Source: Chitinophagaceae bacterium (GTDB lineage Bacteria > Bacteroidota > Bacteroidia > Chitinophagales > Chitinophagaceae). From it: DNA of 50,302 bases. Under the pieces are notes generated by a model. The model was not told the origin of the DNA, did not search any database, and worked only from the letters and a program-made list of their open reading frames with translations. Shown piece by piece: positions 26,180-46,194 of this stretch; position 1 is the first letter of the stretch, and every line of letters begins with the position of its first letter. The translations under genes were made by a program, and so were the position numbers. The DNA is taken from contig JACSRW010000015.1 of the NCBI GenBank assembly GCA_014879565.1, positions 1-50,302 of the forward strand, in the 5' to 3' direction.

Positions 26180-26250
26180 GCACCCCTACAGGGTGCCCAT
26201 TTACGTCAATCACATTACATTTCTACCTACAATGCACCCCTACGGGGTGC
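26180..26250. repeat. Pair of 17-bp hairpins, REP-like
   Basis: GCACCCCTACAGGGTGC at 26180-26196 and GCACCCCTACGGGGTGC at 26234-26250 lie in the same orientation, 54 bases apart, each preceded by ACAAT. The stem is GCACCCC with GGGGTGC (one mismatch in the first copy) and the loop is TAC. A third, slightly degenerate copy is at 10247-10262. Confidence 0.75.
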
Positions 26251-26262
26251 TCCCATTGCCTA

Positions 26263-26346
26263 TTCCCCATTCCCCACTCCCCATTCACCATTCCCCACTC
26301 CCTATTCACCACTCCCCACTCCCTATTCACCACTCCCCACTCCCCA
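26263..26346. repeat. Four tandem 21-bp CT-rich units
   Basis: Units start at 26263, 26284, 26305 and 26326. The second to fourth have the form TTCACCA(T/C)TCCCCACTCCC plus (T/C)A. The period is a multiple of three, which explains why an open frame (Ser-Pro-Leu-Pro-Ile-His repeats) runs across it. A short relative of this sequence is seen in the cysN-cysD gap (43390-43414). Confidence 0.8.
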
Positions 26347-26450
26347 TTAAACCTTCCCCCTTCTTCCCGGTCCTAAATCCGTTCACATTAATTAACGTGG
26401 ATGGCCGAAGGTTCTTTAAACAAGCCGCCGTCTCAAAGAAAAACAAGCAC

Positions 26451-31020: not shown

Positions 31021-33567
31021 TCAGTTCACATTATAACGAAGTGTTATACCGTACATCCTGGGATCACCCAGCACGGACGCATAATGACCCGCATTCCCTC
31101 CTGCCGGCAACAGTTGCTCATGATAATTACGGTCAAGCAGGTTTCTGACCCAAATAAAAGCAGAGAGTCCCTGTTTTGTTTTAAAACCAAACCGTGCATT
31201 AATCAGCTCATACCCTTCAATATTGAGATATGCGGAGGGGGAAGGACTCGAAGAAAAGCCCGAACGGTAAAAGAGATCAGCGCCCAGGTAAAAGCAGGAT
31301 GCTTTTCCGAGGAAAACAGCCGGGAATGTATACTCTGCCCCGGTGGAAAAGGACCAGGGTGAAATACCGGGCAATTCACCTCCGGAGATATCTTTAAAGG
31401 CCACCTGTACATTATTCAGCGTGTTACCTGTTTCTTCCAGAGGCAGGGGTGCATTGGTAAACCGTACATACCTGGCATTGGTATAAGCGACGGATCCGTA
31501 AAAGGAAAATTTTTCACCCAAACGGTAACTGGTTTCCAGTTCACCGCCCCGTATCCGCACTTTTTCCGCGTTGGCAATATAGCCCCGGTTCACTCCCAGC
31601 TCGGGTGACTGTACATTGGTCTGGTAGTTCCGGATTTCTGTTTGAAAGAAAGTCAGGTTCAGGATAAGATCCTTTGCAGGAGATGTTTTAACACCGGCCT
31701 CCAGGTGCTGCACATACTCCGGTTTAATAACGGCCAGCTGGGTTGCTGCCTGTCCGTTAATGCTGGGAAGACCGGCCACATTTACCCCTACCGGTTTGAA
31801 GGCGGTGGAATAGGTGGCATACGCGTTCATACGGCTGTTGGGTTTATAGGCGACTGTCAGGTTACCGGTGAGGTTTGTTTCATCCGCATCAGCTACATAT
31901 TGCTGACTGGTATAGACCGCGTTTTTCAGGGCGATCAGGGCCGGATCAGTTGTTATCAGCCCGCCATAGGTGGTCCGGTTATAGGAAACATCCTTTTTAT
32001 CAAAATTAATCCGCAAGCCGGGGAGCACATGTAATACAGGACTGATTTGCCAGTCCGCATTTACAAAAGCCGCCGCGCTGAAAGATTTTATGGATGCTTT
32101 GGTGGAGATGCCATATCCATCAAACAAACCGGGGGTTTCCCATAAACTGCTGGTGGAACTTTTGGAAAAACGCCATTGCGCGGAACCGGATTCCTCCGTG
32201 CCATTGATATTCACTTCCTGCCCTATAAAAAACAAACCGGCCACCCCGCTGAGCGAAGCGGAGAGCTCACCCGCATAACGGATTTCCTGTGACCAGTTGC
32301 GGTGTTTGGCGGGATTCTGGGATTTGGCAAGGGCCTGCAGTCCGGTAAAATCGCGGTCATTGGAAGGATCCCAGTTCCAGAACCGGTAAGCTGTGGTGGA
32401 AGTAAGGGTACCTCCGCCCAGTCTGGCATCTATATTAACAGATCCGCCTCCCAGTTCATTACCCGATTTCCAGGGAGTATCATGATCCACAATCCGGTCA
32501 AATGCGTTTTGGGAAGGTAAGGTATAATTAAGGTCAGCAATGATAGCATTGAACTGGCGATAGGCCGCCCTTTTAGTCGGCACCACCCCCGCTACCACCT
32601 GGGCATACCCTTCGGGACGCTGACGGGAATAATCCCCGGAAAGGGTAACCTGTACTTTATCCGTTAAATTATACAGGAACTGTGTTTTCAGCCCGAGGTT
32701 ATTGATATCATTAATGTACCGGTCTGTTCTTTTATTATAAACCGTCCCGTCTCTTTGTGTACCGGAGAATGAAAAACGGGCCGCCAGTTTGCGGCTGAGC
32801 GGACCGGTTACGGATGCCTTGGCCTGGATGAAGCCATAGTTTCCGTAACTGGTCTCAAAACCGGCACCGCTCTTAAACGCAGGTTTGCGGGTGGTGATAT
32901 TAAAAGCGCCCGAAGTCGTATTCTTACCGAAAAGGGTGCCCTGTGGTCCGCGTAATACTTCCACCCGTTCCACATCAATAAAATCCAGGGTGGCCACTGC
33001 CGGGCGGGCAAAGTATACCCCATCAATATAAAAACCCACACCCGGATCCAGGCCGTCATTGGTCAGTCCAAACGGCGAGCCGGTTCCCCGGATATTCACC
33101 CCCGTATTCCGGGGATTGGAGGTATACATCTGTACGGAAGGAATCAATTCCTTAATCCGGGTTACATTGAAGGCGCCGGCATCATCAATAGCCGCACCGC
33201 CGATCACCGTTACCGGAATGGGCACATCCTGTAACACTTCTTTTCTTCTTCTGGAGGTGATGACTACCGTATCCCGCTGAAACAGGGGCATTAACCGGAT
33301 CAGCAATTCATCCTGTAAGCTTGTTTTTACCAGCACATCGCGGTGCTCATACCCCACCGAAGAGAACTGCAGCACAAAGGGAATGGGCTTATTGACCGGT
33401 AATGTAAAATGACCTGCCGAATCAGTACTGGTTCCCGCACCGGACCCTTTTACGGTAACACTGGCAAAAGGAATACCCTGGTTGCTGCTGTTAACCACGC
33501 GTCCGCTGATCTGAGCGGCGGCCAGGAAGTAAAAAAATAAACCCGGTAAAAAAAGGAGCTTTCTCAT
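31021..33567 (-). CDS. TonB-dependent outer-membrane receptor, sulfur-island member
   Basis: An 848-residue receptor: signal peptide (MRKLLFLPGLFFYFLAAAQ), carboxypeptidase-like regulatory domain (about 20-100, ISGRVVNSSNQGIPFASVTVKG), plug domain (about 110-225; IPVTVIGGAAIDDAGAFNVT, VEVLRGPQGTLFGKNTTSGAFN) and a 22-strand barrel ending in GDPRMYGITLRYNVN. No SusD partner is encoded, so it is not a glycan-type SusC system. Its promoter (33636-33643) is flanked by two 21-bp operators that also occur at the siroheme and cys promoters. It therefore probably takes up a sulfur source or a related cofactor; the substrate itself cannot be read. It would depend on the Ton motor of the kind encoded at 20-2392. 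Confidence 0.93.
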   Translation of the reverse strand: MRKLLFLPGLFFYFLAAAQISGRVVNSSNQGIPFASVTVKGSGAGTSTDSAGHFTLPVNKPIPFVLQFSSVGYEHRDVLVKTSLQDELLIRLMPLFQRDTVVITSRRRKEVLQDVPIPVTVIGGAAIDDAGAFNVTRIKELIPSVQMYTSNPRNTGVNIRGTGSPFGLTNDGLDPGVGFYIDGVYFARPAVATLDFIDVERVEVLRGPQGTLFGKNTTSGAFNITTRKPAFKSGAGFETSYGNYGFIQAKASVTGPLSRKLAARFSFSGTQRDGTVYNKRTDRYINDINNLGLKTQFLYNLTDKVQVTLSGDYSRQRPEGYAQVVAGVVPTKRAAYRQFNAIIADLNYTLPSQNAFDRIVDHDTPWKSGNELGGGSVNIDARLGGGTLTSTTAYRFWNWDPSNDRDFTGLQALAKSQNPAKHRNWSQEIRYAGELSASLSGVAGLFFIGQEVNINGTEESGSAQWRFSKSSTSSLWETPGLFDGYGISTKASIKSFSAAAFVNADWQISPVLHVLPGLRINFDKKDVSYNRTTYGGLITTDPALIALKNAVYTSQQYVADADETNLTGNLTVAYKPNSRMNAYATYSTAFKPVGVNVAGLPSINGQAATQLAVIKPEYVQHLEAGVKTSPAKDLILNLTFFQTEIRNYQTNVQSPELGVNRGYIANAEKVRIRGGELETSYRLGEKFSFYGSVAYTNARYVRFTNAPLPLEETGNTLNNVQVAFKDISGGELPGISPWSFSTGAEYTFPAVFLGKASCFYLGADLFYRSGFSSSPSPSAYLNIEGYELINARFGFKTKQGLSAFIWVRNLLDRNYHEQLLPAGGNAGHYASVLGDPRMYGITLRYNVN

Positions 33568-33579
33568 ATGCTGTTTATT

Positions 33580-33600
33580 ACTCTACAATATTAGTAGACT
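33580..33600. promoter_or_regulatory. 21-bp operator-like inverted repeat A (receptor leader)
   Basis: ACTCTAC-N7-GTAGACT: 7-bp arms with one mismatch and a 7-base spacer. It lies in the 5' leader of the receptor gene between the -7 box and the ATG. It shares arms and spacing with sites at 33661, 39030, 39038, 39146 and 45733. Confidence 0.7.
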
Positions 33601-33706: not shown

Positions 33707-35212
33707 TTAAAAGACTTTGTAAAGTATGCGGATACTCCAGGCTACCACAACAGTTCCCAAAAATATAAAGGACGTCTTACGGGGAAGTTTACCCGCCAGC
33801 CGGGCTGCAATGGGCGCCGCAATCACTCCGCCGAGCACGAGCGCAAGAATCACCTGCCAGTTTTGAACTCCGATGAGTGTAAAAAAGGTGAAAGCACTGG
33901 CAAGGGTCACAAAAAATTCTGTAAGACTGACGGAGCCGACTACATAACGCGGTGTACGGCCCTTGGTGATCAGGGTAGAGGTGACGATGGGCCCCCAGCC
34001 GCCGCCGCCGAATGAGTCAAGAAAACCGCCGATACCAGCCAGCCAGCCGTAGCGGGTGAATTTTTTCTTGCCGTTCATCGGCCGGAACGCATTGCTGAAA
34101 ATACGGATACCCAGCAGCAGGGTATAGATGGCCATTGCCGGACGCAGGTAACGCAGATGGGTATCGTCAAACCATACCAGCAGCAAAGCGCCCAGCACCG
34201 CCCCGATTACACCGGGTATGACCAGTGCGCGGAAAAGTTTTTTATTGACATTACCGAATTTATAATGACTATAGCCGGAGGCGCCGCTGGTAAACATTTC
34301 GGCTGTATGTATACCCGCACTGATGGCTGCCGGGCTCACCTGGGCGGTTTGCAGCACAATGGAACTGGTCACCCCATAACCCATACTGGTGGCGCCATCC
34401 ACCATCTGGGCCAGGAAGCCGGCCAGTACCATCCAGTGAAAATTCGGATCCAGGGTCTGGTACCACTGCTGGGTATCATCTGCCAGCTGCCGGATAGGGA
34501 TATACGAAAAGATAAAATGACCGATCAGCATGAGTCCGAAGGCCGCCAGTGAATAGGTGGCGATTTTCCGCCAGCGAAGAGCCGTACCTGCTGATTCCTT
34601 TTCCACCAGCACTTTCGTGAGCTCATTCATTTTCCTGACCTTGTGCTGAAAGTTACCGTTGAGCCGGTTTCGAACGGTATGCAGGTTGTCAATCACCGCA
34701 TCCAGCTCGCCGGGTAAGGCCTCGTGCAGCACTTCCTTGATCCGCTTACCGGCCGTGGGTGATTTACCGTTGGTGGAAATGGCAATTTTCAAATTCCCTT
34801 TCTGTACAATGCTGCTGAGATAAAAATCACAGAGCTCAGGGGTATCGGCCACATTAACCAGAATTTTTTTCTCTTGCGCTTTCTTTTTGATCTGTACATG
34901 CAGGGCCGGATTATCGGTGGCCAGGATAACCAGGTCCCGTCCTTCCAGGTCCGCCTCGGTGTATTTGCGCTGTTCTATCCGGCAGGATGGATGGCGGTAC
35001 ACCAGTTTGCGCACTTCATCCAGTACCTTCGGCGCTACAATGGTAATTTGGGCAGAAGGAGAATTGGCCAGGAGGGAATGCAGTTTTTCCAGCCCCACAT
35101 TGCCGGCCCCTACCAGCAATAAATTCAGCTTATCCAGTTTCAGAAAAACGGGATAAAGCGGATTTTTCACTTCCGGCACAGCACTATGTTTATTTTTCTC
35201 TTCCTGGCTCAT
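33707..35212 (-). CDS. Fusion: precorrin-2 dehydrogenase/sirohydrochlorin ferrochelatase + TSUP (TauE/SafE) permease
   Basis: A 501-residue two-part protein. Residues about 18-215 are a Met8p/CysG-B domain: NAD-binding loop LLLVGAGNVGLEK (34-43), the segment VNVADTPELCDFYL with the Asp (123) expected to act in dehydrogenation and chelation, and ISTNGKSPTAGKRIKE. It should turn precorrin-2 into siroheme. Residues about 220-501 are a TSUP/TauE-SafE membrane domain of about eight helices (VDGATSMGYGVTSS, GIGGFLDSFGGGGWGPI, the usual repeated glycine motifs), a family that moves sulfite, sulfate or organosulfonates. The frame is continuous with no stop or shift in the joint. It follows hemB after 113 bases in the siroheme operon. 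Confidence 0.92.
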   Translation of the reverse strand: MSQEEKNKHSAVPEVKNPLYPVFLKLDKLNLLLVGAGNVGLEKLHSLLANSPSAQITIVAPKVLDEVRKLVYRHPSCRIEQRKYTEADLEGRDLVILATDNPALHVQIKKKAQEKKILVNVADTPELCDFYLSSIVQKGNLKIAISTNGKSPTAGKRIKEVLHEALPGELDAVIDNLHTVRNRLNGNFQHKVRKMNELTKVLVEKESAGTALRWRKIATYSLAAFGLMLIGHFIFSYIPIRQLADDTQQWYQTLDPNFHWMVLAGFLAQMVDGATSMGYGVTSSIVLQTAQVSPAAISAGIHTAEMFTSGASGYSHYKFGNVNKKLFRALVIPGVIGAVLGALLLVWFDDTHLRYLRPAMAIYTLLLGIRIFSNAFRPMNGKKKFTRYGWLAGIGGFLDSFGGGGWGPIVTSTLITKGRTPRYVVGSVSLTEFFVTLASAFTFFTLIGVQNWQVILALVLGGVIAAPIAARLAGKLPRKTSFIFLGTVVVAWSIRILYKVF

Positions 35213-35325
35213 ATTTATTCAGCGGCTCAATATCACAAAAATTCAGGGCCCGGCAAAACTCGGTCCCCGCTTTTACATATTAACTGATTAAAATCATTCA
35301 GTCCACCATTTTTATCGGGTAAACT

Positions 35326-36318
35326 TTAATAGGTCATCCTCTCAATCCATCCCCTCGCCTCCCCGGCCGCGTATGAAATAATCATAGCTGCCCCGGCCCG
35401 GTTTAAGGCAGCCCATACTTCGAGGTGGGCGGCGGCCCGGCTGACCAGTCCCTGCTGAGCCAGGCTTTCCACAGCTGCGTATTCACCACTGACATGATAG
35501 GCCGCGAGCGGTTTGCGGGTTTCCTGTTTTAAAGTCAGCAATATATCAGTATACAGGGCGGCCGGTTTCACCATCAGAATATCGGCTCCTTCCTGATCAT
35601 CCCGCAAGGCGGAAGCAATGGCATCCTCCCGGTTGAATGGGGAATGCTGGTAGGTTTTCCGGTCTGACAAGCCGGCAGACGGTGCGGAATGGCAGGCATC
35701 CCGGAAGGGGCCGTAAAATTGGGAACTGAATTTGGCGGCATAACTCATAATACTGACCGTATCATATCCCAGTGCATCCAGCCGGCTTCGGATCGCGGCG
35801 ATCCGCCCATCGGTCATATCACTGGGCGCGATGCAGTCGGCCCCCGCTACGGCCAGTTCAGCTGCATAACGGGAGATCAGTTCCACGCTGGCATTATTCA
35901 GCATCCGGGTTAACGAGCTATCCAGTATTCCGCAATGTCCATGGGTGGTATAACTGCACAAACAGCAATCTGCCGCCAGCCAGATTTCCGGACCAAACAC
36001 CGCTTTTAACTGCCGGATAGTACGGACAGCAAAAGAAAAATCACCGACCACCTCCTGCTTCGCCGCCGGTACCGGGAACAGCAGGAATTTATTTATACCG
36101 CTTTGGATGGCTTTTGTTACTGCCTGTTCCACGGTTGCTGCGGTCTCCACCTGAATTCCCGGCAACCCTTTTACCTCCCGGGGTTGTGAAAGTCCCTCTT
36201 CCACAAACAGGGGAATAATAAACTGTTTATGCGATAAGCGGACAGAAGCGGTCAGTTCCCGCATAAGCGGACTAGTGCGGTATCTGCGCTGTGTCAGCGG
36301 ATAGCGGAGGTTCTCCAT
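35326..36318 (-). CDS. hemB: Porphobilinogen synthase (delta-aminolevulinate dehydratase), zinc type
   Basis: A 330-residue enzyme that condenses two 5-aminolevulinate molecules to porphobilinogen. Both active-site lysines are visible, in SIMSYAAKFSSQFYGPFRDA and in ADILMVKPAALYTDIL. The metal loop reads DCCLCSYTTHGHCGILD, with the three cysteines of zinc-dependent HemB. The protein starts MENLRYPLTQRRYRTSPLMR, usual for the family. Its first 25 bases overlap the 3' end of the hemC-hemD gene, so the genes are translationally coupled. The product feeds the next enzyme in the same operon. Confidence 0.95.
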   Translation of the reverse strand: MENLRYPLTQRRYRTSPLMRELTASVRLSHKQFIIPLFVEEGLSQPREVKGLPGIQVETAATVEQAVTKAIQSGINKFLLFPVPAAKQEVVGDFSFAVRTIRQLKAVFGPEIWLAADCCLCSYTTHGHCGILDSSLTRMLNNASVELISRYAAELAVAGADCIAPSDMTDGRIAAIRSRLDALGYDTVSIMSYAAKFSSQFYGPFRDACHSAPSAGLSDRKTYQHSPFNREDAIASALRDDQEGADILMVKPAALYTDILLTLKQETRKPLAAYHVSGEYAAVESLAQQGLVSRAAAHLEVWAALNRAGAAMIISYAAGEARGWIERMTY

Positions 36319-37808
36319 TGTTCAAATGCTTTAATAGTGGGAAATATCACCGGAGCTATCCCTGCTTTCTGTAAAGCGGAAGCGGTTTCACCCCCGGGGC
36401 AGAGATGCAGTACTTCTTTAGCACATAAATGACCATACCATTCATACTGGGCATAACTGCTCCAGAATACGGCCCCGGCCTGCTGAATAGCAGCAACCAG
36501 GGAAGGATCAGCCTGTGGTACTGTTTTATGCAGCCCGGTTGCTTTATATCCCTTTTCATTCCAGCGAAGGGCCGCCGAATCATGTGTCAGGATATGCACT
36601 GCATTTACCGGTAACCCGAACAAGGGCATGGCTAATACGGGTAAAAAATTTTCAAGACCCAGCGCATCTGCTGAGCCTTCCACCCAGTAACCCAGGCGGG
36701 CCATTTCCAGCCAGGTTCTGGTACCCGATACAAAAAGTTGTTTTCCCTGTAACAAACCAGGTATATCCGGATAATTGCAGAGTTTGTAATTGGATATAAA
36801 CAGGGCCGGTTCCGAAACGGTCACTTCTTTCCGCGTGCGTTTGTAGGTGAAAAAATCACGCATCCGGTCGGTCGCGGAAAACAATACTCCTTTCCAGGCC
36901 GGTACGAGAGGTTCGGGATACCAATGTACAAATGACTGACCCGCGGCACCCACCCCGGCTGCATAGAGATATTCGCGGTTTCCGGTGCGGATAGTCGTAA
37001 CCCCAAAGCGTTGTTCGCAGCCGCTGCCATATTGCTGCGCCCTGTCTTTTTCCGATTTAGCTTCGGTAAAAAGATTCAGCCGGTTGATGGCCTGCACTAC
37101 ACGGACGGCTTTTTCATTACCGGGATAAGCCTCCGCCACAATGACTCCCTGGCAGGGCGCAGGTACACATTCCAGCAGGGGAAGCAGCATTTTTTTCCGG
37201 TCTTTCAGCAAGGAACGGATAACCGGCCCCATCGTTTCATCCCGCAATAAACGGTTGAGTCCGGCCGTGGCGAGAATCGTGGCATCATATTCACCCCGGG
37301 CCAGTTTTTGCAAACGGGTTTCCACATTACCGCGTATCGGTTTTACCTGCAGCCGGATACCCGCCGGGTGTAATTGCGGAAGGGCTTTCTGCAAAAACTG
37401 CAGGGCCATTTCTTCGCGCCGGGGTGAGCAGGTACCCACCACCAGGGTTTCACCCCGGCTGATTTTTTTTTCCGTATCCGGATTAAAGAGGGCAATATCC
37501 CGCGGGTCATCCCGGTCAATAACCGCGAATACATGGGAACCGGAAAAGTGCGCGTGACTCATATCCTTCAGCGAATGCACCGCAATATCCGCTTCCCCTT
37601 TTTCCAGGGAGGCAAAAATGGCTTCGGTAAAAAAATCACTTCCTTCCACCGTTTGCAGGGGAATACCGGCGAGCTCATCGCCTTTACTGCTTCGGGGAAT
37701 AATCTCCACCCTGTAATCCGGAAAGGCAGCCTCAATACAATGTTTCGCTGTCTCCAGCTGCAGCAGGGAAAGCGGCGAATGCCGACCGGTCAGCCGGATC
37801 GTCTCCAT
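36294..37808 (-). CDS. hemC: Hydroxymethylbilane synthase fused to uroporphyrinogen-III synthase-like domain
   Basis: A 504-residue protein. The ATG at 37808 (METIRLTGRHSPLSLLQLET) is the start, because HemC needs its N-terminus here; the frame is open further upstream without similarity. HemC part (1-300): HSLKDM with the catalytic Asp82, GTCSPRR, PIRGNVETRLQKL, and Cys264 in GSGCEQRFG for the dipyrromethane cofactor. The C-terminal part (about 310-504) looks like HemD: it begins with PALFISNYKL..., and ends LCPGGETASALQKAGIAPVIFPT, the pattern of the last HemD strand-helix. So one polypeptide would make uroporphyrinogen III. The HemD half is divergent and its call is less sure. It overlaps the upstream gene by 77 bases and hemB by 25. 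Confidence 0.9.
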   Translation of the reverse strand: METIRLTGRHSPLSLLQLETAKHCIEAAFPDYRVEIIPRSSKGDELAGIPLQTVEGSDFFTEAIFASLEKGEADIAVHSLKDMSHAHFSGSHVFAVIDRDDPRDIALFNPDTEKKISRGETLVVGTCSPRREEMALQFLQKALPQLHPAGIRLQVKPIRGNVETRLQKLARGEYDATILATAGLNRLLRDETMGPVIRSLLKDRKKMLLPLLECVPAPCQGVIVAEAYPGNEKAVRVVQAINRLNLFTEAKSEKDRAQQYGSGCEQRFGVTTIRTGNREYLYAAGVGAAGQSFVHWYPEPLVPAWKGVLFSATDRMRDFFTYKRTRKEVTVSEPALFISNYKLCNYPDIPGLLQGKQLFVSGTRTWLEMARLGYWVEGSADALGLENFLPVLAMPLFGLPVNAVHILTHDSAALRWNEKGYKATGLHKTVPQADPSLVAAIQQAGAVFWSSYAQYEWYGHLCAKEVLHLCPGGETASALQKAGIAPVIFPTIKAFEQWRTSAIR

Positions 37809-38994
37809 ACAGTACTCTTTTGAGGCAATATGCCAGGTGATGAATTTGCCGCGACTCATGCCGGGCTGTAATAATAAGACGCAGGCATTCCTCTCCCTCC
37901 GGTACGGTGGGATAATTGATCGGCTGCAGATAAATGCCATGATCCCGGAGCAATGTATCAGCCAGCCGGCGGCAATGCAGGGCGTTACCAACCGGCAGGA
38001 TGGTGATATGGGAACGATTCTCCCGGCAGGGGATAGCCGCCTTTTTTAACGCGTTTCGGAGCGCCGTCACATTCCGGAAAAAAACACGACGTAACTTTTC
38101 ATTTGCCTGAATATGTTTAATACTGGCTGCGGCAGCTGCACATACTGCCGGGGGCAGGGAGCTGGTAAAAATAAATCCGCTGCCAAAACTGCGGATAAAA
38201 TCAACCAGCAGGGCAGAGGCGGCAATGTATCCGCCAAATACACCGATGGCTTTGGAAAGGGTGCCGTTAACAATATCCACGTCTGCCTGCAGTCCTTCCT
38301 GCTCCAAAATTCCGGCCCCTGAAGGGCCGTACAAACCCACTGCATGCACTTCGTCGGCATAGGTCAGGGCATTGTATTTCCGGGCCAGGGCCGTTATATC
38401 CCTGACCGGTGCGAGGGTGCCGCACATGGAATAAACGGTTTCAAACACGATCAGTCTGGGCTGTCCGGCCGGAAGCTCCTGCAACAGGGAGGCCAGGTGA
38501 TCCATATCATTATGCCGGAATATTTTTTTCTCGTTCCGGCAACCCCGTATGCCTTCAATGATGGAGGCATGATTTTTTTCATCCGATAAAAAAACCAGCC
38601 CGGGAATTTGCCGGCCCAGTGTCTGCAGCGTGGTTACATTCGCCTGATAGGCCCCGTTGAACAATAAGGCCGCTTCTTTATTATGCCAGTCAGCCAGCAG
38701 GTTTTCCAGTTCGCGGTGCCAACCTGTTGTGCCGGAAATATTGCGTGTACCACCGCTGCCTGTTCCGCTCTTACGGGCTACACCCGTCATCCGCGCTATC
38801 ACCGTTGCTTCCGTACTCATACCCAGGTAATCGTTGCTGCACCAGTTCACCGCCTGCCGGGACTGCCCCGCTTCGTCTGTATAACAGAGTTGGGGAAAAT
38901 GTTCCGCACTGCGGCGATGGGTAAGGAAATAACGGTACCGCCCTTCTTTTTTAAGGGTGGCCAGTTTATCCGCAAAGAATTCCGGGTAATGCAT
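37732..38994 (-). CDS. hemA: 5-aminolevulinate synthase (glycine + succinyl-CoA route)
   Basis: A 420-residue PLP enzyme of the alpha-oxoamine synthase group. The features that point to ALA synthase and not to BioF or Kbl are GTGSGGTRNISGTTGWHRELE (seen as GSGGTRNISGT, residues 79-89), YADEVHAVGLYGPSGAG (212-228), SFGSGFIFTSSLPP (269-282) and GIYLQPINYPTVPEGEECLR (353-372). The PLP lysine is Lys248 in NGTLSKAIG. The ATG at 38994 (MHYPEFFADKLATLKKEGRY) is preferred over an in-frame TTG 24 bases upstream. It opens the operon to hemC-hemD, hemB and the siroheme synthase fusion. Most Bacteroidota make ALA from glutamyl-tRNA, so this gene is unusual. Its last 77 bases overlap hemC. Confidence 0.88.
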   Translation of the reverse strand: MHYPEFFADKLATLKKEGRYRYFLTHRRSAEHFPQLCYTDEAGQSRQAVNWCSNDYLGMSTEATVIARMTGVARKSGTGSGGTRNISGTTGWHRELENLLADWHNKEAALLFNGAYQANVTTLQTLGRQIPGLVFLSDEKNHASIIEGIRGCRNEKKIFRHNDMDHLASLLQELPAGQPRLIVFETVYSMCGTLAPVRDITALARKYNALTYADEVHAVGLYGPSGAGILEQEGLQADVDIVNGTLSKAIGVFGGYIAASALLVDFIRSFGSGFIFTSSLPPAVCAAAAASIKHIQANEKLRRVFFRNVTALRNALKKAAIPCRENRSHITILPVGNALHCRRLADTLLRDHGIYLQPINYPTVPEGEECLRLIITARHESRQIHHLAYCLKRVLYGDDPADRSAFAAFPAAAGDSETLY

Positions 38995-39022
38995 TATCAG
39001 GACCGTTGGTTTTACCAAACAA

Positions 39023-39030
39023 CAAATATA
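39023..39030 (-). promoter_or_regulatory. -7 promoter box (TATATTTG) of the ALA synthase operon
   Basis: CAAATATA on the plus strand gives TATATTTG on the minus strand, an exact TAnnTTTG match, 28 bases ahead of the ATG at 38994. Operator-like repeats begin at its upstream edge. Confidence 0.65.
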
Positions 39031-39058
39031 GTCTATTTATCTACTGGACTAATAGACT
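39030..39058. promoter_or_regulatory. Two overlapping 21-bp operator-like repeats C1/C2
   Basis: C1 is AGTCTAT-N7-CTGGACT at 39030-39050; C2 is TATCTAC-N7-ATAGACT at 39038-39058. They overlap with an offset of 8 bases. The outer half-sites AGTCTAT and ATAGACT are perfect reverse complements. They lie just upstream of the heme-operon -7 box and would cover its -33 region. Confidence 0.65.
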
Positions 39059-39134
39059 TATCCAAAAATCATTTTCTCCCGTACGTACATGTGTTCATAT
39101 CCATTTTTATTTTGGGTGCAGCGGCGAAAGCCTG

Positions 39135-39142
39135 TATTTTTG
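39135..39142 (+). promoter_or_regulatory. -7 promoter box (TATTTTTG) of the sulfite reductase gene
   Basis: An exact TAnnTTTG match, 64 bases ahead of the ATG at 39207. It supports the start at 39207 over the upstream in-frame start at 39006, which would lie before the promoter. Confidence 0.65.
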
Positions 39143-39145
39143 TTT

Positions 39146-39166
39146 AGTCTACATTATTAATAGAGT
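39146..39166. promoter_or_regulatory. 21-bp operator-like inverted repeat B (sulfite reductase)
   Basis: AGTCTAC-N7-ATAGAGT, beginning three bases after the -7 box, so it covers the expected transcription start. A bound protein here would be expected to repress. Confidence 0.65.
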
Positions 39167-39206
39167 ATTTTTTCACCCGGACAGTTGTCCGCCAACCTTT
39201 ACCCGT

Positions 39207-41303
39207 ATGCAGAGTTTCCGCACGGAACTGGAAAACCCCCTGGTTGAACAGGACATTATTGAACTGGAAAAGAAAATCCGTTTATACCGGGAGGGTAAAA
39301 TGGACGATGAAAAATTCAGAAGTCTCCGTCTGGCCCGGGGGGTGTACGGCCAGCGGCAGCCCGGGGTGCAGATGGTACGTATCAAATTACCCTATGGCAA
39401 AATGAGCCTGGCCCAATGGGAACGCATCGCGGCGGTTTCTGACAACTACTCCACCGGCAATCTGCACCTCACAACCCGGCAGGATATCCAGTTGCATTTT
39501 GTCAGCCTGGACCGCACGCCGGAATTATGGGCAGAGCTGGAACAAGATCAGCTCACCATCCGCGAAGCCTGCGGAAATACCGTCCGGAATATCACGGCAT
39601 CGGATACTGCCGGGATTGACCCGGATGAGCCCTTTGACGTGACGCCCTATGCGCACGCAATGTTTGCCTATTTCCTCCGCAAACCGCTCTGCCAGGAAAT
39701 GGGCCGTAAGTTCAAAATTGCGTTCAGTAATACGGAAAAAGACAGTGCCCTGACCTTTATGCATGATATGGGTCTCATCGCCCGTGTACGGGAAGAGGAA
39801 GGCCGCCTGGTCAGGGGATTTAAAGTGCTGATCGGCGGCGGACTGGGAGCCCAGCCCCACCTGGCCATCTGTACCCGCGAATTTTTAGCAGCAGACCTGC
39901 TGATCCCCTACCTGGAAGCCGTGCTCCGGGTATTTGACCGGCACGGGGAACGGAACAGCCGGCACAAAGCCCGGATTAAATTCCTGATACAGAAAACAGG
40001 CATAGAACTTTTTAACCAGCTGGTGGAAGCGGAACAAAATGCGCTTACACATCAGCGTTATACTGTATTAACGCAAGAGGAATCTGTATTTACCCCGGAA
40101 AATAAAACGGGGCCTGTTCACCCGGCGGAGGATCCTGAATTTCTCTACTGGAAGAAAACAAACCTGTTTACACAAAAACAGGCCGGCTATTACGCGGTAT
40201 ATGTCCGGGTACCCAACGGCAATATTTCCAGCCATACCAGCCGTAACCTGATCCGCCGGCTCAACGGCCTGATTGCCGATGATGTGCGCGTGACGATCAA
40301 CCAGGGTTTACAGTTCCGGTTTGTGACAGAAGCCAACCTGTATCCTGTTTACCGGATCTTACAGGAAGAAGGACTCGCCGCCCCCGGATTTGGCAGCGTG
40401 GCGGATATAACCAGTTGCCCCGGTACCGATACCTGTAATCTGGGTATCAGTAACAGTACCGCAACGGCCCTGGTACTGAGCGAACTGATTGAAGAGGAAT
40501 TTCCTGAATTCCTGGAGAACAAGGAAATCACCGTTCGTATCAGCGGTTGTATGAACAGCTGCGGACAGCATGGGATGGCCTCCATCGGTTTTCACGGCAG
40601 CTCCCTGAAAGCCAATGGCCTGGTTGTACCGGCCCTGCAGGTACTGGTTGGTGGTGCCGTGCTGGGCAGCGGTGATGCCCGGATGGCAGAAAAAGTGATT
40701 AAAATCCCCGGTAAAAGAGCCCCGCTGGCGCTGCGCCGTATTCTGCAGGATTACAAAGAAAACAGAACCCCCGGTGAAAGTTTTGCCGTTTACAATCACC
40801 GCCGGGGTGAACAACACTATTATGAATTGCTGAAACCCCTGGCCCGGCTGGATAACCTGCAGGAAGAGGAGTATATTGACTGGGGACAGGAAGTGAAATT
40901 TTCCACCGCCATCGGGGTGGGCGAATGCGCCGGTGTGATGATTGACCTGGTGGCTACGCTGTTACTGGAAGCGCAGGAGAAAATAGAAGCGGCAGAAGCC
41001 TGTTTATCGCAGCAGCAATGGGCCGATGGAATTTACCATGCTTATTCCGCGCGTATCCAGTGCGCCAAAGCATTGCTGCTCGGAGAAGGTGTGCATTGCA
41101 ATACGCAGATGGGCATCCTGACTGATTTTGACCGGCACTTCACCGACAAGGGTCTGTATGTCACGGCTACCAGTTTCAAAGAGGAGGTCCTTCAGATGAA
41201 TGCCCATAGTCCCTCAGGGGCTTTTGCCGAAGCTTACTTAACGCAATCAAAATCCTTTTTGTCGTTTACCGGTGAATGGCGGGAAAAAGGAAAAAAGGGT
41301 TAA
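39207..41303 (+). CDS. Siroheme-dependent sulfite (nitrite/sulfite) reductase with C-terminal HEPN-like domain
   Basis: A 698-residue protein. Residues 1-530 are a nitrite/sulfite reductase: RLARGVYGQRQPGVQMVRIK (41-60), GNLHLTTRQDIQLHF (84-98), GGGLGAQPHLA, and the siroheme/[4Fe-4S] ligands Cys404 and Cys410 in TSCPGTDTC with Cys448 and Cys452 in SGCMNSCGQHG. With the cys genes around it, sulfite is the likely substrate. Residues about 575-698 are extra: two long helices with EAQEKIEAAEACLSQQQWADGIYHAYSARIQCAKALLLGEG (seen as DGIYHAYSARIQCAKALLL) that resemble a HEPN domain. No Rx4-6H ribonuclease motif is present. The gene is divergent from the heme operon and ends exactly where cobA ends. 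Confidence 0.92.
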   Translation: MQSFRTELENPLVEQDIIELEKKIRLYREGKMDDEKFRSLRLARGVYGQRQPGVQMVRIKLPYGKMSLAQWERIAAVSDNYSTGNLHLTTRQDIQLHFVSLDRTPELWAELEQDQLTIREACGNTVRNITASDTAGIDPDEPFDVTPYAHAMFAYFLRKPLCQEMGRKFKIAFSNTEKDSALTFMHDMGLIARVREEEGRLVRGFKVLIGGGLGAQPHLAICTREFLAADLLIPYLEAVLRVFDRHGERNSRHKARIKFLIQKTGIELFNQLVEAEQNALTHQRYTVLTQEESVFTPENKTGPVHPAEDPEFLYWKKTNLFTQKQAGYYAVYVRVPNGNISSHTSRNLIRRLNGLIADDVRVTINQGLQFRFVTEANLYPVYRILQEEGLAAPGFGSVADITSCPGTDTCNLGISNSTATALVLSELIEEEFPEFLENKEITVRISGCMNSCGQHGMASIGFHGSSLKANGLVVPALQVLVGGAVLGSGDARMAEKVIKIPGKRAPLALRRILQDYKENRTPGESFAVYNHRRGEQHYYELLKPLARLDNLQEEEYIDWGQEVKFSTAIGVGECAGVMIDLVATLLLEAQEKIEAAEACLSQQQWADGIYHAYSARIQCAKALLLGEGVHCNTQMGILTDFDRHFTDKGLYVTATSFKEEVLQMNAHSPSGAFAEAYLTQSKSFLSFTGEWREKGKKG

Positions 41304-42098
41304 CTAAACGGGACCGGGGAATACCGTTCCCTGTTCACCGCCACGAAACCAACTAAAACGCCCCTGCAGGCGCAGCACATCCCCCATTATTACGAGCGAC
41401 GGGGAAGAAAATTCTTTTTCTTTAAAATCCTGCTGTACGGTGCCGAGTTCGGAGAAATGAGTTTGCTGGGCCAGGGTACTGGCCTGTTCAATGACTGCGA
41501 CGGGTTTGCCGGGATCTGCTCCGTTATCCAGTAATTGCCGGGCAAAACCAAGCAGGGTTTTACCCGCCATATAAATCACCAGCGTTTCCGTACTGACCGC
41601 CAGGGAAACCCAGGTGGTTGTATCGTATTGCTGATCGGGGTTATACGCGATAAAACGCACTCCCTGCGCATAGCCCCTGGCTGTAAGGGGTATACCGGTA
41701 TAAGCAGATGCCCCGGAAGCCGCTGTAACACCGGGAACAATTTCAAAAGGAATACCGTGTTGTTCCAGGGCAAACAGTTCATCCAGCACATTACTGAAAA
41801 ATGCCACATCACCGCCTTTGAGCCGCAGTACATTTTTTCCTTGCAGGGCTTCCTGTACCAGTAAGGCCGTTACTTCTTCCTGGGTGTACGATTGCTGATT
41901 GTACCCTTGTTTACCTGCCCGGATAATCCGGGCCTCCGGCCGGGCATGGGTTTTTAATATTGCGGGATGTACGAGCCGGTCTGTAATAATTACATCAGCC
42001 TCCTGCAGCCGTTGCATCAGTTTCAGGGTAATCAGTTCCGGATCTCCCGGACCGGCCCCTGCCAGTACCACTTTTCCGCTTGGAGTTGTTTCCGCCAT
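41304..42098 (-). CDS. cobA: Uroporphyrinogen-III C-methyltransferase (SUMT)
   Basis: A 264-residue SAM-dependent methylase. It shows the N-terminal GKVVLAGAGPGDPELITLK, RLKGGDVAFFSN (the family GDPxxF-like loop) and the VPGVTAASGASAYTGIPLT motif of tetrapyrrole methylases. It makes precorrin-2 from uroporphyrinogen III, which the Met8 domain of the fusion at 33707-35212 would turn into siroheme. It is the last gene of prx-cysH-cysD-cysN-cobA, 12 bases after cysN. Its stop codon abuts the stop codon of the convergent sulfite reductase gene with no base between them. Confidence 0.95.
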   Translation of the reverse strand: MAETTPSGKVVLAGAGPGDPELITLKLMQRLQEADVIITDRLVHPAILKTHARPEARIIRAGKQGYNQQSYTQEEVTALLVQEALQGKNVLRLKGGDVAFFSNVLDELFALEQHGIPFEIVPGVTAASGASAYTGIPLTARGYAQGVRFIAYNPDQQYDTTTWVSLAVSTETLVIYMAGKTLLGFARQLLDNGADPGKPVAVIEQASTLAQQTHFSELGTVQQDFKEKEFSSPSLVIMGDVLRLQGRFSWFRGGEQGTVFPGPV

Positions 42099-42110: not shown

Positions 42111-43355
42111 TCAGTTTTGAATGAGGACGGCGGCTACCGTACTGTTACTGGTCTCATCCACCAGAATGGCTGACCCGTATTCACTGAAGACATCGTAGGG
42201 ATCATATACCACCGGGACGGCGGTTTTGATCACCGCTTTCACCACTTCATTCAGTTTCACCTGTCCTTCCACAGGCTGGTGTTCAAGCGTATTCACATCA
42301 ATCTTGTAATCCACCTGACGGATCATCGCCCTTACCAGCCGGCTGTTATGCTGCAACAGATATTTATTTCCTGAAATCAGCGGTTTGTCATCCATCCAGC
42401 AAAGCAGTACTTCCAGCTCATTGTTCACCCGTGGCTGGTTATCTGTTTTCACAATGGTATCCCCACGGGAAATATCAATATCATCTGCCAGTTGCAGCAC
42501 GGCGCTTTGGGGGGCAAACACTTCGGCCACTTCCTCTCCGCCGGTTTCCACGGATGTAATGCTGGTCTGAATACCCTGCGGTAATACGGTGACCTTATCC
42601 CCTTTTTTATAAACCCCGCTGATTACTTTACCGGCATATCCGCGGTAATCATGCAAAGCTTCTGTCTGCGGCCGTATAACCACCTGCACCTGGAAACGGG
42701 GGTCGGTGAGGTTGACATCCTGGTCAATTTGCACTTCTTCCAGGTATTCCAGCAGGGGTTTGCCGCTGAACCAGGGAATACGGGCGGATTTGTCAACGAT
42801 ATTATCGCCATCCAGGGCGCTCATCGGGATATAGGTAATATTTTTCAGCCCCAGTCTTTCCGCCACATGGTTATAGTCAATCACGATATTGTTGAAGACA
42901 TCCTGTGAAAAATCAACCAGGTCCATTTTATTCACCGCCACCACCACGTGTTTGATCCGGAGCAGGGAGGCAATGATGGAATGCCTTCTTGTCTGTTCCA
43001 CCACGCCCTGCCGGGCATCAATCAGGATTATGATCAGGCTGGCATTGGAAGCGCCGGTAATCATATTGCGGGTGTACTGCACATGACCCGGTGCATCGGC
43101 AATAATGAATTTTCTTTTGGGGGTGCTGAAATACCGGTAGGCCACATCAATCGTAATTCCCTGCTCCCGTTCGGCCCGCAGTCCGTCTGTAAGTAAGGCC
43201 AGGTCCACCGATCCGTCTGTCCGGTTTTTGGTGGATTTTTCCAATGCCTCCAGCTGGTCAATCAGGATATTTTTACTGTCGTACAATAATCGTCCGATCA
43301 GGGTACTCTTCCCGTCATCCACACTGCCTGCTGTTATAAAACGCAATAAATCCAT
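42111..43355 (-). CDS. cysN: Sulfate adenylyltransferase subunit 1 (GTPase)
   Basis: A 414-residue elongation-factor-like GTPase that drives ATP sulfurylase. G motifs: GSVDDGKSTLIGRLLYD (P-loop), DAPGHVQYTRNMITGAS (DxxG), NKMDLVDF (NKxD). It begins MDLLRFITAGSVDDGKST, the family norm. There is no fused CysC (APS kinase) domain; this agrees with the APS-type reductase encoded in the same operon. It follows cysD after 58 bases. Confidence 0.96.
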   Translation of the reverse strand: MDLLRFITAGSVDDGKSTLIGRLLYDSKNILIDQLEALEKSTKNRTDGSVDLALLTDGLRAEREQGITIDVAYRYFSTPKRKFIIADAPGHVQYTRNMITGASNASLIIILIDARQGVVEQTRRHSIIASLLRIKHVVVAVNKMDLVDFSQDVFNNIVIDYNHVAERLGLKNITYIPMSALDGDNIVDKSARIPWFSGKPLLEYLEEVQIDQDVNLTDPRFQVQVVIRPQTEALHDYRGYAGKVISGVYKKGDKVTVLPQGIQTSITSVETGGEEVAEVFAPQSAVLQLADDIDISRGDTIVKTDNQPRVNNELEVLLCWMDDKPLISGNKYLLQHNSRLVRAMIRQVDYKIDVNTLEHQPVEGQVKLNEVVKAVIKTAVPVVYDPYDVFSEYGSAILVDETSNSTVAAVLIQN

Positions 43356-43389: not shown

Positions 43390-43414
43390 TCCCCACTTCC
43401 TACTCACCACTCAC
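43390..43414. repeat. CT-rich repeat remnant between cysD and cysN
   Basis: CCCCACTTCCTACTCACCAC and a few more bases lie in the cysN-cysD gap. The sequence resembles the 21-bp unit of the array at 26263-26346, so it may be a single copy of the same dispersed repeat. Confidence 0.45.
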
Positions 43415-44325
43415 TAAAAATACCCGTTCTTCTTCCTGTCTTCCATTGCCGCCTCGGTTACTTTGTCATCAATCCTGGTTTCCCCGCGTTCACTGATCCG
43501 GGTGGCCACAATCTCATTGATAACTTCTTCAAGGGTAGCTGCCTGAGATTCCACCGCGGCGGTACAGGTCATATCTCCCACGGTACGGTACCGCACTTTT
43601 TTGGTGAGGACCACATCCGTTTCATCGGGCTGTACATAATCACTGATCGCCACCAGTTGCCCCTCGTGTTCGATAACCTGCCTTTCGTGCGCGAAATAAA
43701 TCGAGGGCAGGGGAATATTTTCTTTCCGGATATAGTTCCAGATATCCAGTTCTGTCCAGTTGCTGATCGGGAATACGCGTACATTCTCGCCTTTATGGAT
43801 CCGACCGTTGTAAATACTCCACAGTTCGGGACGCTGCAGTTTGGGATTCCACTGGCCAAACTCATCCCGTACGGAAAAGATCCTTTCTTTTGCCCTTGCC
43901 TTTTCTTCATCCCGGCGGGCCCCGCCGATACAGCAATCAAAGCCGAATTCTTCAATCGTATCCAGCAGGGTATAGGTCTGCAGCCAGTTGCGGCTGGGAA
44001 ATTTCCCTTTGGGTTCGGTAAGATGGCGCTGGCGGATGGTATCTTCCACTTTACGGACCACCAGGGTAGCATCCAGTTCGGCAACGAGGTTATCGCGGAA
44101 ATTCAGCGCTTCCGGAAAATTATGCCCGGTGTCAATATGCACCAGGGGAAACGGAATTTTACCGGGGGCAAATGCTTTGCGCGCCAGGTGCACCAGGGTG
44201 ATGGAATCTTTTCCTCCGCTGAATAATAAAGCCGGCTTTTCAAACTGTCCGGCCACTTCCCGGAAAATATGGATGCTCTCTGCTTCGAGCTGTTCCAGGT
44301 AATTTAACTGATACGAATGATTCAT
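43414..44325 (-). CDS. cysD: Sulfate adenylyltransferase subunit 2
   Basis: A 303-residue PP-loop enzyme that forms APS from ATP and sulfate. The ATG at 44325 (MNHSYQLNYLEQLEAESIHI) is the family start; the longer frame upstream overlaps cysH and has no similarity. Motifs: the PP-loop LLFSGGKDSITLVHLA, HIDTGHNFPE, CCIGGARRDEEKARAKER and the C-terminal RISERGETRIDDK...EAAMEDRKKNGYF. It acts with CysN. It lies 22 bases after cysH. Confidence 0.96.
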   Translation of the reverse strand: MNHSYQLNYLEQLEAESIHIFREVAGQFEKPALLFSGGKDSITLVHLARKAFAPGKIPFPLVHIDTGHNFPEALNFRDNLVAELDATLVVRKVEDTIRQRHLTEPKGKFPSRNWLQTYTLLDTIEEFGFDCCIGGARRDEEKARAKERIFSVRDEFGQWNPKLQRPELWSIYNGRIHKGENVRVFPISNWTELDIWNYIRKENIPLPSIYFAHERQVIEHEGQLVAISDYVQPDETDVVLTKKVRYRTVGDMTCTAAVESQAATLEEVINEIVATRISERGETRIDDKVTEAAMEDRKKNGYF

Positions 44326-44347
44326 ACGCTGCTGTTCAGACCTTATA

Positions 44348-45052
44348 TTATTTTTTTTGTACCCCGTGCAGTCCGCATTCCTTCTGCGAAGTTTCCCACC
44401 ACCAGCGGCCGGCCCGGGGATGCTCACCGGGTTCTATGGCGCGGGTGCAGGGTGCACAACCAATACTGACAAATCCTTTATCGTGAAGAGGGTTATACGG
44501 CACATTCCATTCGCGGATATAGGCCATCATTTCCTCATAACTCCAGTTGATCAGGGGATTGAATTTATACAACCGACGGGATTCATCCCATTCCAGCAGG
44601 GGCATATCCTGCCGGTTATCCGATTGCTCCGCCCTTAACCCGGTAATCCATACATCCATTCCCTGCAAAGCCCGGTTCAGGGGCAGCACCTTACGGATAT
44701 GACAGCAGGCTTTCCGGTTTTCCACTGACTCATAAAAGCCGTTGATCCCTTTATCCTGAACATACGTCTCCACATCCGCCGGTTCCGGAAAATAGAGAGC
44801 AATTTTTCGTTTATACCTGGCCGTTGTCCTGTCCAGCAGTTCATAGGCTTCATTAAAAAGCCGCCCGGTATCCAGGGAAAAAATACGGACGGGCAGTTCA
44901 TGCCGGCAAATAAGATCGGTCAGTACCTGGTCTTCCTGGCCCAGGGAAGTGGAAAAACAGACTTTGCCCGGAAACCATTCCGTTACCAGGCGGATAGCGC
45001 CGGCTGCATCGAGCCGGCCGGCTTCCTGTATTTGTTCTTCAGTGAGTTTCAT
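44348..45052 (-). CDS. cysH: Adenylyl-sulfate (APS) reductase, [4Fe-4S] type
   Basis: A 234-residue thioredoxin-dependent reductase that forms sulfite. The catalytic Cys is in the C-terminal KECGLH. The cysteine pair KACCHIRK together with GCAPCTR gives the CC...CxxC ligand set of enzymes that bind a [4Fe-4S] cluster and use APS, not PAPS. This fits with the absence of APS kinase. The PAPS-like binding loop FSTSLGQEDQVLTDL is at about 33-47. The start lies one base after the peroxiredoxin stop, which implies coupled translation. Confidence 0.95.
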   Translation of the reverse strand: MKLTEEQIQEAGRLDAAGAIRLVTEWFPGKVCFSTSLGQEDQVLTDLICRHELPVRIFSLDTGRLFNEAYELLDRTTARYKRKIALYFPEPADVETYVQDKGINGFYESVENRKACCHIRKVLPLNRALQGMDVWITGLRAEQSDNRQDMPLLEWDESRRLYKFNPLINWSYEEMMAYIREWNVPYNPLHDKGFVSIGCAPCTRAIEPGEHPRAGRWWWETSQKECGLHGVQKK

Positions 45053-45786: not shown

Positions 45787-46194
45787 TTAGCCTGCCAGGT
45801 CCTTCAGGGTCCTGTTTTCCAGGATACTGAGCGAGGCGTCCCGCACTTCCACCATCATATCATGCAGGCCGCATTTTTTTTCATCACAGTTTTTACAGCG
45901 CTCATAAAAATAGAGGCTGACACAGGGCAGCATAGCGATCGGACCGTTGACCAGCCGGATAATAGTGGCCACTTTTACCCTGGCCGGATCTTTGGCCAGG
46001 AAATAACCTCCCCCTTTCCCTTTTTTACTGTCAAGGATACCCTCCTTTTTCAGTTCCAGCAGGATGTTTTCGAGAAACTTAAGCGGTATTTTTTTCTTTT
46101 TGGCGATCTCTGAGATCAGCACCGGCCCCTGTTTGTACCGGTCGGTCAGGTATTCCAGGGCCTTAAATGCATACTGTGATTTCTTGGAAAGCAT
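45787..46194 (-). CDS. Rrf2-family transcriptional regulator with four C-terminal cysteines
   Basis: A 135-residue winged-helix regulator. It starts MLSKKSQYAFKALEYLTDRY and has the recognition region ISEIAKKKKIPLKFLENILLELKKEGIL and GKGGGYFLAKDP, all typical of Rrf2 (IscR, CymR, NsrR relatives). The effector part has Cys91, Cys100, Cys103 and Cys108 in PCVSLYFYERCKNCDEKKC, which could hold an iron-sulfur cluster or sense cysteine status. It lies just upstream of the prx-cys operon and is the only regulator in the region, so it is the natural candidate to bind the 21-bp repeats. It follows the OsmC gene after six bases. Confidence 0.92.
   Translation of the reverse strand: MLSKKSQYAFKALEYLTDRYKQGPVLISEIAKKKKIPLKFLENILLELKKEGILDSKKGKGGGYFLAKDPARVKVATIIRLVNGPIAMLPCVSLYFYERCKNCDEKKCGLHDMMVEVRDASLSILENRTLKDLAG

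Follow-up and report, generated by a model that had tools for sequence, protein, structure and literature searches.

Lactobacilli are not known to synthesize heme. In Lactobacillus coryniformis (and L. reuteri), the genes for uroporphyrinogen III are reported to be grouped with those of a single end product in a cbi-cob-hem cluster (PMC5064896). Five Porphyromonas species, members of the Bacteroidota without a complete protoporphyrin pathway, are reported to retain the steps to uroporphyrinogen III (PMC4700951). The locus described here lies in a Chitinophagaceae bacterium (assembly GCA_014879565.1, contig JACSRW010000015.1), within a stretch of 50,302 nucleotides that we call the window. It encodes 5-aminolevulinate synthase (ALAS), a HemC-HemD fusion (HemCD), HemB, a Met8 domain fused to a TauE/SafE exporter domain (Met8-TauE), CobA and an enzyme of the NIR_SIR type (SiR), surrounded by genes of sulfate assimilation.

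This gene set is best read as the complete and only tetrapyrrole line of a bacterium that has lost heme synthesis. The line would end at siroheme for the adjacent sulfite reductase, would be regulated with sulfur supply, and would leave heme to be obtained from outside. We place the probability of this reading at about 0.82. It draws on gene identities, sole gene copies, the lack of those heme genes that were tested, a distribution that coincides with that of NIR_SIR genes, and a motif in common, all taken from sequence.

A predicted route from glycine to siroheme

An earlier note on this DNA had assigned six genes to a siroheme pathway and its client enzyme. All six are open reading frames where it placed them, with family matches that agree with its labels, the substrate of the reductase apart (Table 1); a few frames begin slightly further upstream in the mechanical list of reading frames. 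The closest solved structures to the ALAS product are themselves ALAS (2bwn, 7x98), followed by serine palmitoyltransferase and KAPA synthase. K248, which we take to be the pyridoxal phosphate lysine, and R21, N54, T83 and N85, presumably the substrate residues, are unvarying in all nine aligned sequences. By family score and conserved residues the protein is a 5-aminolevulinate synthase, with a predicted specificity for succinyl-CoA.

The HemC part of the fusion matches 17 PDB sequences at E < 1e-15, every one a HemC, and the HemC structure 1pda is matched by the predicted model of the full-length fusion. In 17 of the sequences at hand, aligned for this purpose, C264, D82, R130 and R131 are unvarying; we take these to be the cofactor cysteine, the catalytic aspartate and the arginine pair. 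The C-terminal part is more divergent: HEM4/HemD is matched by 16 of 35 aligned HemCD members (best E 4.8e-6), but no PDB sequence was matched when a profile of this part was used as query. Its 205-residue model has a mean predicted local distance difference test score (pLDDT) of 92, and all 11 fold matches at E ≤ 0.001 are uroporphyrinogen-III (U3) synthases, with template modeling scores by query length of 0.37-0.55. On this predicted structure, the C-terminal half has the U3 synthase fold, which disfavors the possibility that HemD is missing or replaced.

When HemB is aligned with 5lzl, both motifs of the active-site lysines are present. For 72 HemB sequences (38 from such lines, 30 of the canonical ones found in relatives, and four plasmid-borne), a quick tree sets the 38 on one side of a branch with a support of 100; the program cautions that this group is where long branches meet. 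The line HemB seems not to be a recent duplicate of the local canonical gene, and it may be either acquired or old. The final steps are also encoded, as judged from sequence, by a uroporphyrinogen-III C-methyltransferase (SUMT) and by dehydrogenase/chelatase domains that both score above cut-off (TIGR01470, 107 bits against 62). The fused exporter domain scores 118 bits for PF01925. The Met8-TauE fusion is matched over its length in two heme-making relatives as well (G064 and G079).

Heme genes not found in the genome

The genome spans 3.43 Mb in 44 contigs, of which the window is one (C31), and is 99.5% complete. HemB and HemC each have a single match in it, both in this cluster, which thus has the only hemB/hemC set. 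The earlier note had reasoned that the line would not be siroheme-specific if this set were the only one and hemE to hemH lay elsewhere. The set is indeed the only one, but hemE and hemH are not found elsewhere. Family searches of the whole genome for GluTR, HemE and HemH (ferrochelatase) gave no match, hemN, hemG and HemL being outside that search. The gap past uroporphyrinogen III noticed by the earlier note therefore extends to the genome for HemE and HemH, and a parallel heme route was rejected because these two and GluTR are absent.

The heme genes might have existed and merely fallen outside the assembly, the cluster then being part of a normal pathway; a genome in 44 contigs leaves room for this. 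Against it stand the completeness of the assembly and the result for about 42 genomes of the same genus (G000-G041), none of which has a match to GluTR (matched in 59 genomes), HemE (56) or HemH (59). Since no genome of the genus matches any of the three, an assembly gap is most improbable. The organism carries three COX1 genes and so presumably needs heme, which makes it a probable heme auxotroph, as judged from its gene content. Heme auxotrophy is described as common in uncultured bacteria and, in Bacteroidota, mostly in Bacteroidales (PMC11139205).

A line ending at siroheme could still make the cell's heme if siroheme were a mere intermediate that feeds the siroheme-dependent (Ahb) pathway, and the COX1 products are heme enzymes to be supplied. 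However, PF17805, presumably the domain of AhbA/AhbB-type decarboxylases, is absent from all 13 genomes tested, this one included, and matched in 4/14 controls, AhbC and AhbD lying outside this search. Furthermore, about 36 genomes of the genus lack both the line and the heme genes tested, so the genus would appear to obtain its heme independently of the line. The Ahb route is known from sulfate reducers and archaea (PMC7242693), and we regard its operation here as very unlikely.

Co-occurrence with siroheme enzymes

The window SiR is the only NIR_SIR gene found in its genome (two matching stretches, one gene). Among 144 relatives (a count that includes this genome), one or more of GluTR, HemE and HemH are found in 62, and none of the three in 82. 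Heme loss thus looks common in this part of the Chitinophagales, some of the genomes being incomplete. NIR_SIR occurs in 8 of the 82 genomes, ALAS (counted at E ≤ 1e-60) in the same 8, and neither in the other 74. For this table (8/0/0/74), Fisher's test gives p = 2.8e-11, a nominal value since the genomes are related and some incomplete. By comparison, 38 of the heme-gene-bearing genomes have NIR_SIR and only one of them, G064, has ALAS. HemB is present without the heme genes tested in three further relatives (G087, G118 and G130).

This co-occurrence bears on a further explanation, in which the line is an ordinary common supply of uroporphyrinogen III that goes to cobalamin or some other tetrapyrrole as well, its siroheme specificity being a matter of position only. 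Corrinoids could indeed draw on the same uroporphyrinogen III. Retention of the uroporphyrinogen III steps by some Porphyromonas with an incomplete protoporphyrin pathway (PMC4700951) and their presence in the B12 cluster of L. coryniformis (PMC5064896) are consistent with such a supply. An exact association with NIR_SIR among the 82 genomes and a palindrome that ALAS and SiR have in common argue against it, and we consider it unlikely.

A palindrome in common with the sulfur genes

The 212 bases between the divergent ALAS and SiR genes contain one copy per promoter of the palindrome GTCTACT-N5-AGTAGAC, conserved in 12 aligned loci. On the SiR side, TAnnTTTG, which we take to be the Bacteroidota -7 box, immediately precedes the palindrome in 12/12 loci. 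On the ALAS side it is exact in 7/12, and in two of these (L075 and L076) it lies inside the palindrome; both counts are uncontrolled. When the window is scanned, matches at 12/14 positions or better occur only at 33581, before the gene for a TonB-dependent receptor, and at 39039 (ALAS); those at 11/14 are at 5483, 39031 and 39147 (SiR). Shuffled windows give 0.15 matches at 12 and 2.3 at 11.

Because the ALAS-SiR region served to define the motif, only the other genes provide independent evidence. Across 46 loci (789,092 bases), 38 matches of at least 12/14 were found, 36 of them within 250 bp before island genes, two elsewhere and none inside recognised genes. The genes downstream of the 36 are those of the TonB receptor (13), SiR (11), ALAS (10), CysD (4), CobA (4), Met8-TauE (2) and CysH (1), divergent sites being counted for both genes. 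Markov-regenerated DNA gave 0, 1 and 1 matches, and there were none in 31 canonical heme loci totaling 132,300 bases.

From this common palindrome, the line is probably switched on with sulfur demand, as the earlier note had proposed. Its further idea of a private siroheme line stands in part. The tie to a siroheme enzyme holds, given the exact co-occurrence and the motif that ALAS and SiR have in common, while separation from a general heme route does not, as no such route was found. An Rrf2-family regulator encoded in the island is a candidate binder of the palindrome. The copy before the TonB receptor suggests a sulfur role for that protein, in the uptake of a sulfur compound; its identification as a heme receptor was not adopted, as it scores below the curated cut-offs of all 25 NCBIfam families listed.

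Table 1. Features of the sulfur-assimilation island and its control sites in the window
Feature	Position	Strand	Match
TonB-dependent receptor, with its own palindrome copy	31021..33567	-	Pfam
Palindrome before TonB receptor	33581..33599		12/14 positions
Met8/CysG-B (precorrin-2 dehydrogenase/ferrochelatase) fused to TauE/SafE exporter domain	33707..35212	-	PF13241, PF14824, PF01925, above cut-off
HemB (porphobilinogen synthase), divergent clade	35326..36318	-	NF006762, 349 bits (cut-off 297)
HemC-HemD fusion	36294..37808	-	TIGR00212, 171 bits (cut-off 164)
ALA synthase (ALAS, Shemin/C4 route)	37732..38994	-	TIGR01821, 502 bits (cut-off 339)
Palindrome before ALAS	39039..39057		12/14 positions; TAnnTTTG at 39023-39030 on -
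Palindrome before SiR	39147..39165		11/14 positions; TAnnTTTG at 39135-39142 on +
NIR_SIR enzyme, NirA-like, siroheme/4Fe-4S; assimilatory sulfite reductase by context	39207..41303	+	PF01077, PF03460
CobA/SUMT, uroporphyrinogen-III C-methyltransferase	41304..42098	-	TIGR01469, 242 bits (cut-off 185)
CysN	42111..43355	-	TIGR02034, 531 bits (cut-off 336)
CysD	43414..44334	-	TIGR02039, 421 bits (cut-off 397)
CysH (APS/PAPS reductase)	44348..45052	-	TIGR02055, 260 bits (cut-off 235)
Rrf2-family regulator (candidate palindrome binder)	45787..46194	-	PF02082, 117 bits

Gene order in relatives and wider loci

Comparison of gene order, which the earlier note had suggested, finds ALAS, HemCD, HemB and Met8-TauE in a row beside a sulfite reductase in six relatives (G027, G004, G068, G062, G037 and G019), Met8-TauE extending past the contig end in G004. 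In G066 the SiR gene is on a separate contig, and the HemB gene is divided over different frames; near SiR, on contig C42 (locus L074), an 836-residue frame gives a second NIR_SIR match and is possibly a NirB-like nitrite reductase. In G030, HemCD, HemB and Met8-TauE lie on a contig that begins within HemCD, and ALAS may therefore have been cut off.

The island of the heme-making relative G079 (L079) has Met8-TauE, SiR, CobA, CysN, CysD, CysH, Rrf2, OsmC and CDF in the order of the window, with palindrome copies; it differs in having no insert of ALAS, HemCD and HemB, and the peroxiredoxin match is also missing. The peroxiredoxin-, OsmC- and CDF-like genes of the window island were labeled by eye from their translations. 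In heme-making G064 (L076) the order is Met8-TauE, ALAS, SiR, with no HemCD or HemB between; this lone ALAS may represent an intermediate or a remnant.

A scan of genome contigs with the HemCD alignment returned 40 loci, all in Bacteroidota, of which at least six are on the same contigs as relatives already described (L092, L093, L096, L100, L120 and L130, corresponding to G027, G004, G066, G037, G019 and G030). HemB accompanies HemCD in 36, ALAS in 34 and Met8-TauE in 34, several contigs being short. The reductase is of the window (NirA-like) type at 11/40 loci and of the CysI type at 16/40; family tests covered one CysI-type enzyme (L077) and one CysJ-like flavoprotein (L110). At L106 the line follows a molybdopterin oxidoreductase (nitrate reductase-like) and a rubredoxin protein with a weak NIR_SIR_ferr match. 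By eye, L098 resembles it, with the line beside genes like those of nitrate rather than sulfate assimilation. At two Ferruginibacter loci and one from the Chitinophagales (L125, L127 and L131), HemCD adjoins a gene of the SpecificRecomb family (tested in L125), and HemCD is split between frames in L131.

Outside these loci, a Peptoclostridium plasmid (L135) has cobA, hemB and hemL consecutively. In the window itself, a stretch like HSPLPIHHSPLPI recurs in frames at about 26200-26370 and probably reflects a short tandem repeat in the DNA, and the C-terminus of the reductase (40839-41303) is HEPN-like (PF05168 at E 4e-4, its 21 bits just under the cut-off of 22).

A model for the line and points against it

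The model drawn from these gene identities predicts the enzyme activities, an operon, a direction of regulation, the import of heme and siroheme as sole product. ALAS would condense glycine and succinyl-CoA to 5-aminolevulinate, HemB would convert this to porphobilinogen, and HemCD would carry porphobilinogen to uroporphyrinogen III. CobA would then form precorrin-2, and the Met8 domain would turn it into siroheme to be loaded into the adjacent sulfite reductase. Because the genes overlap (ALAS and HemCD by 77 bases, 37732-37808; HemCD and HemB by 25 bases, 36294-36318), ALAS, HemCD and HemB are probably transcribed together, divergently from SiR. A shortage of reduced sulfur probably derepresses the line, since both promoters carry the palindrome of other island genes. 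Heme for the terminal oxidases would be obtained from outside the cell.

Several observations weigh against this reading. The window reductase falls below every NCBIfam equivalog cut-off for sulfite and nitrite reductases (best the NirA family, 223 of 523 bits), so that sulfite rather than nitrite is assigned as its substrate from its place. The C-terminal part of the window HemCD has no Pfam match, HEM4 included, this half being too divergent. Four sulfur loci (L078, L080, L123 and L124) have no palindrome match at 11/14, and in G068 neither cys genes nor CobA were found within 20 kb around the line. ALAS is absent between CysI and HemCD at L102, and L125, L127 and L131 have HemCD with no other line genes nearby. 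Lastly, G064, in which ALAS adjoins SiR, also has GluTR, HemE and HemH and its own HemB and HemC; as a heme maker with ALAS beside SiR, it indicates that heme loss cannot be read from the presence of ALAS alone. The possible draw of corrinoids on uroporphyrinogen III, considered above, belongs with these points.

As to origin, we lean towards a scenario in which uroporphyrinogen III synthesis was rebuilt within the sulfur regulon, after or alongside the loss of heme synthesis, from a C4-route ALAS, a divergent HemCD and a separate clade of HemB. The resulting siroheme-only line would have followed whichever siroheme enzyme was kept, be it the NirA-like SiR, CysJI or possibly a nitrite reductase.

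Comparison with known systems

Two needs usually met by one pathway would here come apart: heme is given up, and siroheme synthesis is kept. We know of no route for siroheme import, and the heme given up must then come from neighbors. The locus would predict which members of a community are able to use sulfate and which must rely on heme from others, and it offers a natural case for the study of siroheme without heme. A literature search returned no siroheme-only line and no heme loss in Chitinophagaceae among the matches listed, which consisted of titles and the starts of abstracts, with subscription journals mostly outside its coverage.

ALAS has been described mainly from alphaproteobacteria and eukaryotes (some of the former and most of the latter, according to the review PMC7242693); here it stands in Bacteroidota beside a putative sulfur operator. 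The window ALAS resembles the alphaproteobacterial enzyme (HemA) in sequence, being 51% identical to a plasmid-borne ALAS of Ruegeria, and differs from it in its host phylum and its tie to siroheme. ALAS-like genes are also found on plasmids of Streptomyces, Vibrio and Parageobacillus. The best plasmid matches, at about 50% identity, belong to alphaproteobacteria and Parageobacillus (49%) alike; the gene table of the Parageobacillus plasmid, which is incomplete, shows no siroheme genes beside ALAS.

The Porphyromonas pathway likewise stops short of protoporphyrin in a member of the Bacteroidota, but starts from glutamate, and siroheme synthase is reported only for P. cangingivalis (PMC4700951). 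The nearest known precedent appears to be a cobalamin cluster with its own uroporphyrinogen III genes, that of L. coryniformis (PMC5064896). There, the end product is a corrinoid, ALA is made from glutamyl-tRNA and the fusion joins HemD to CobA, whereas here the predicted product is siroheme, ALA would come from glycine and the fusion joins HemC to HemD.

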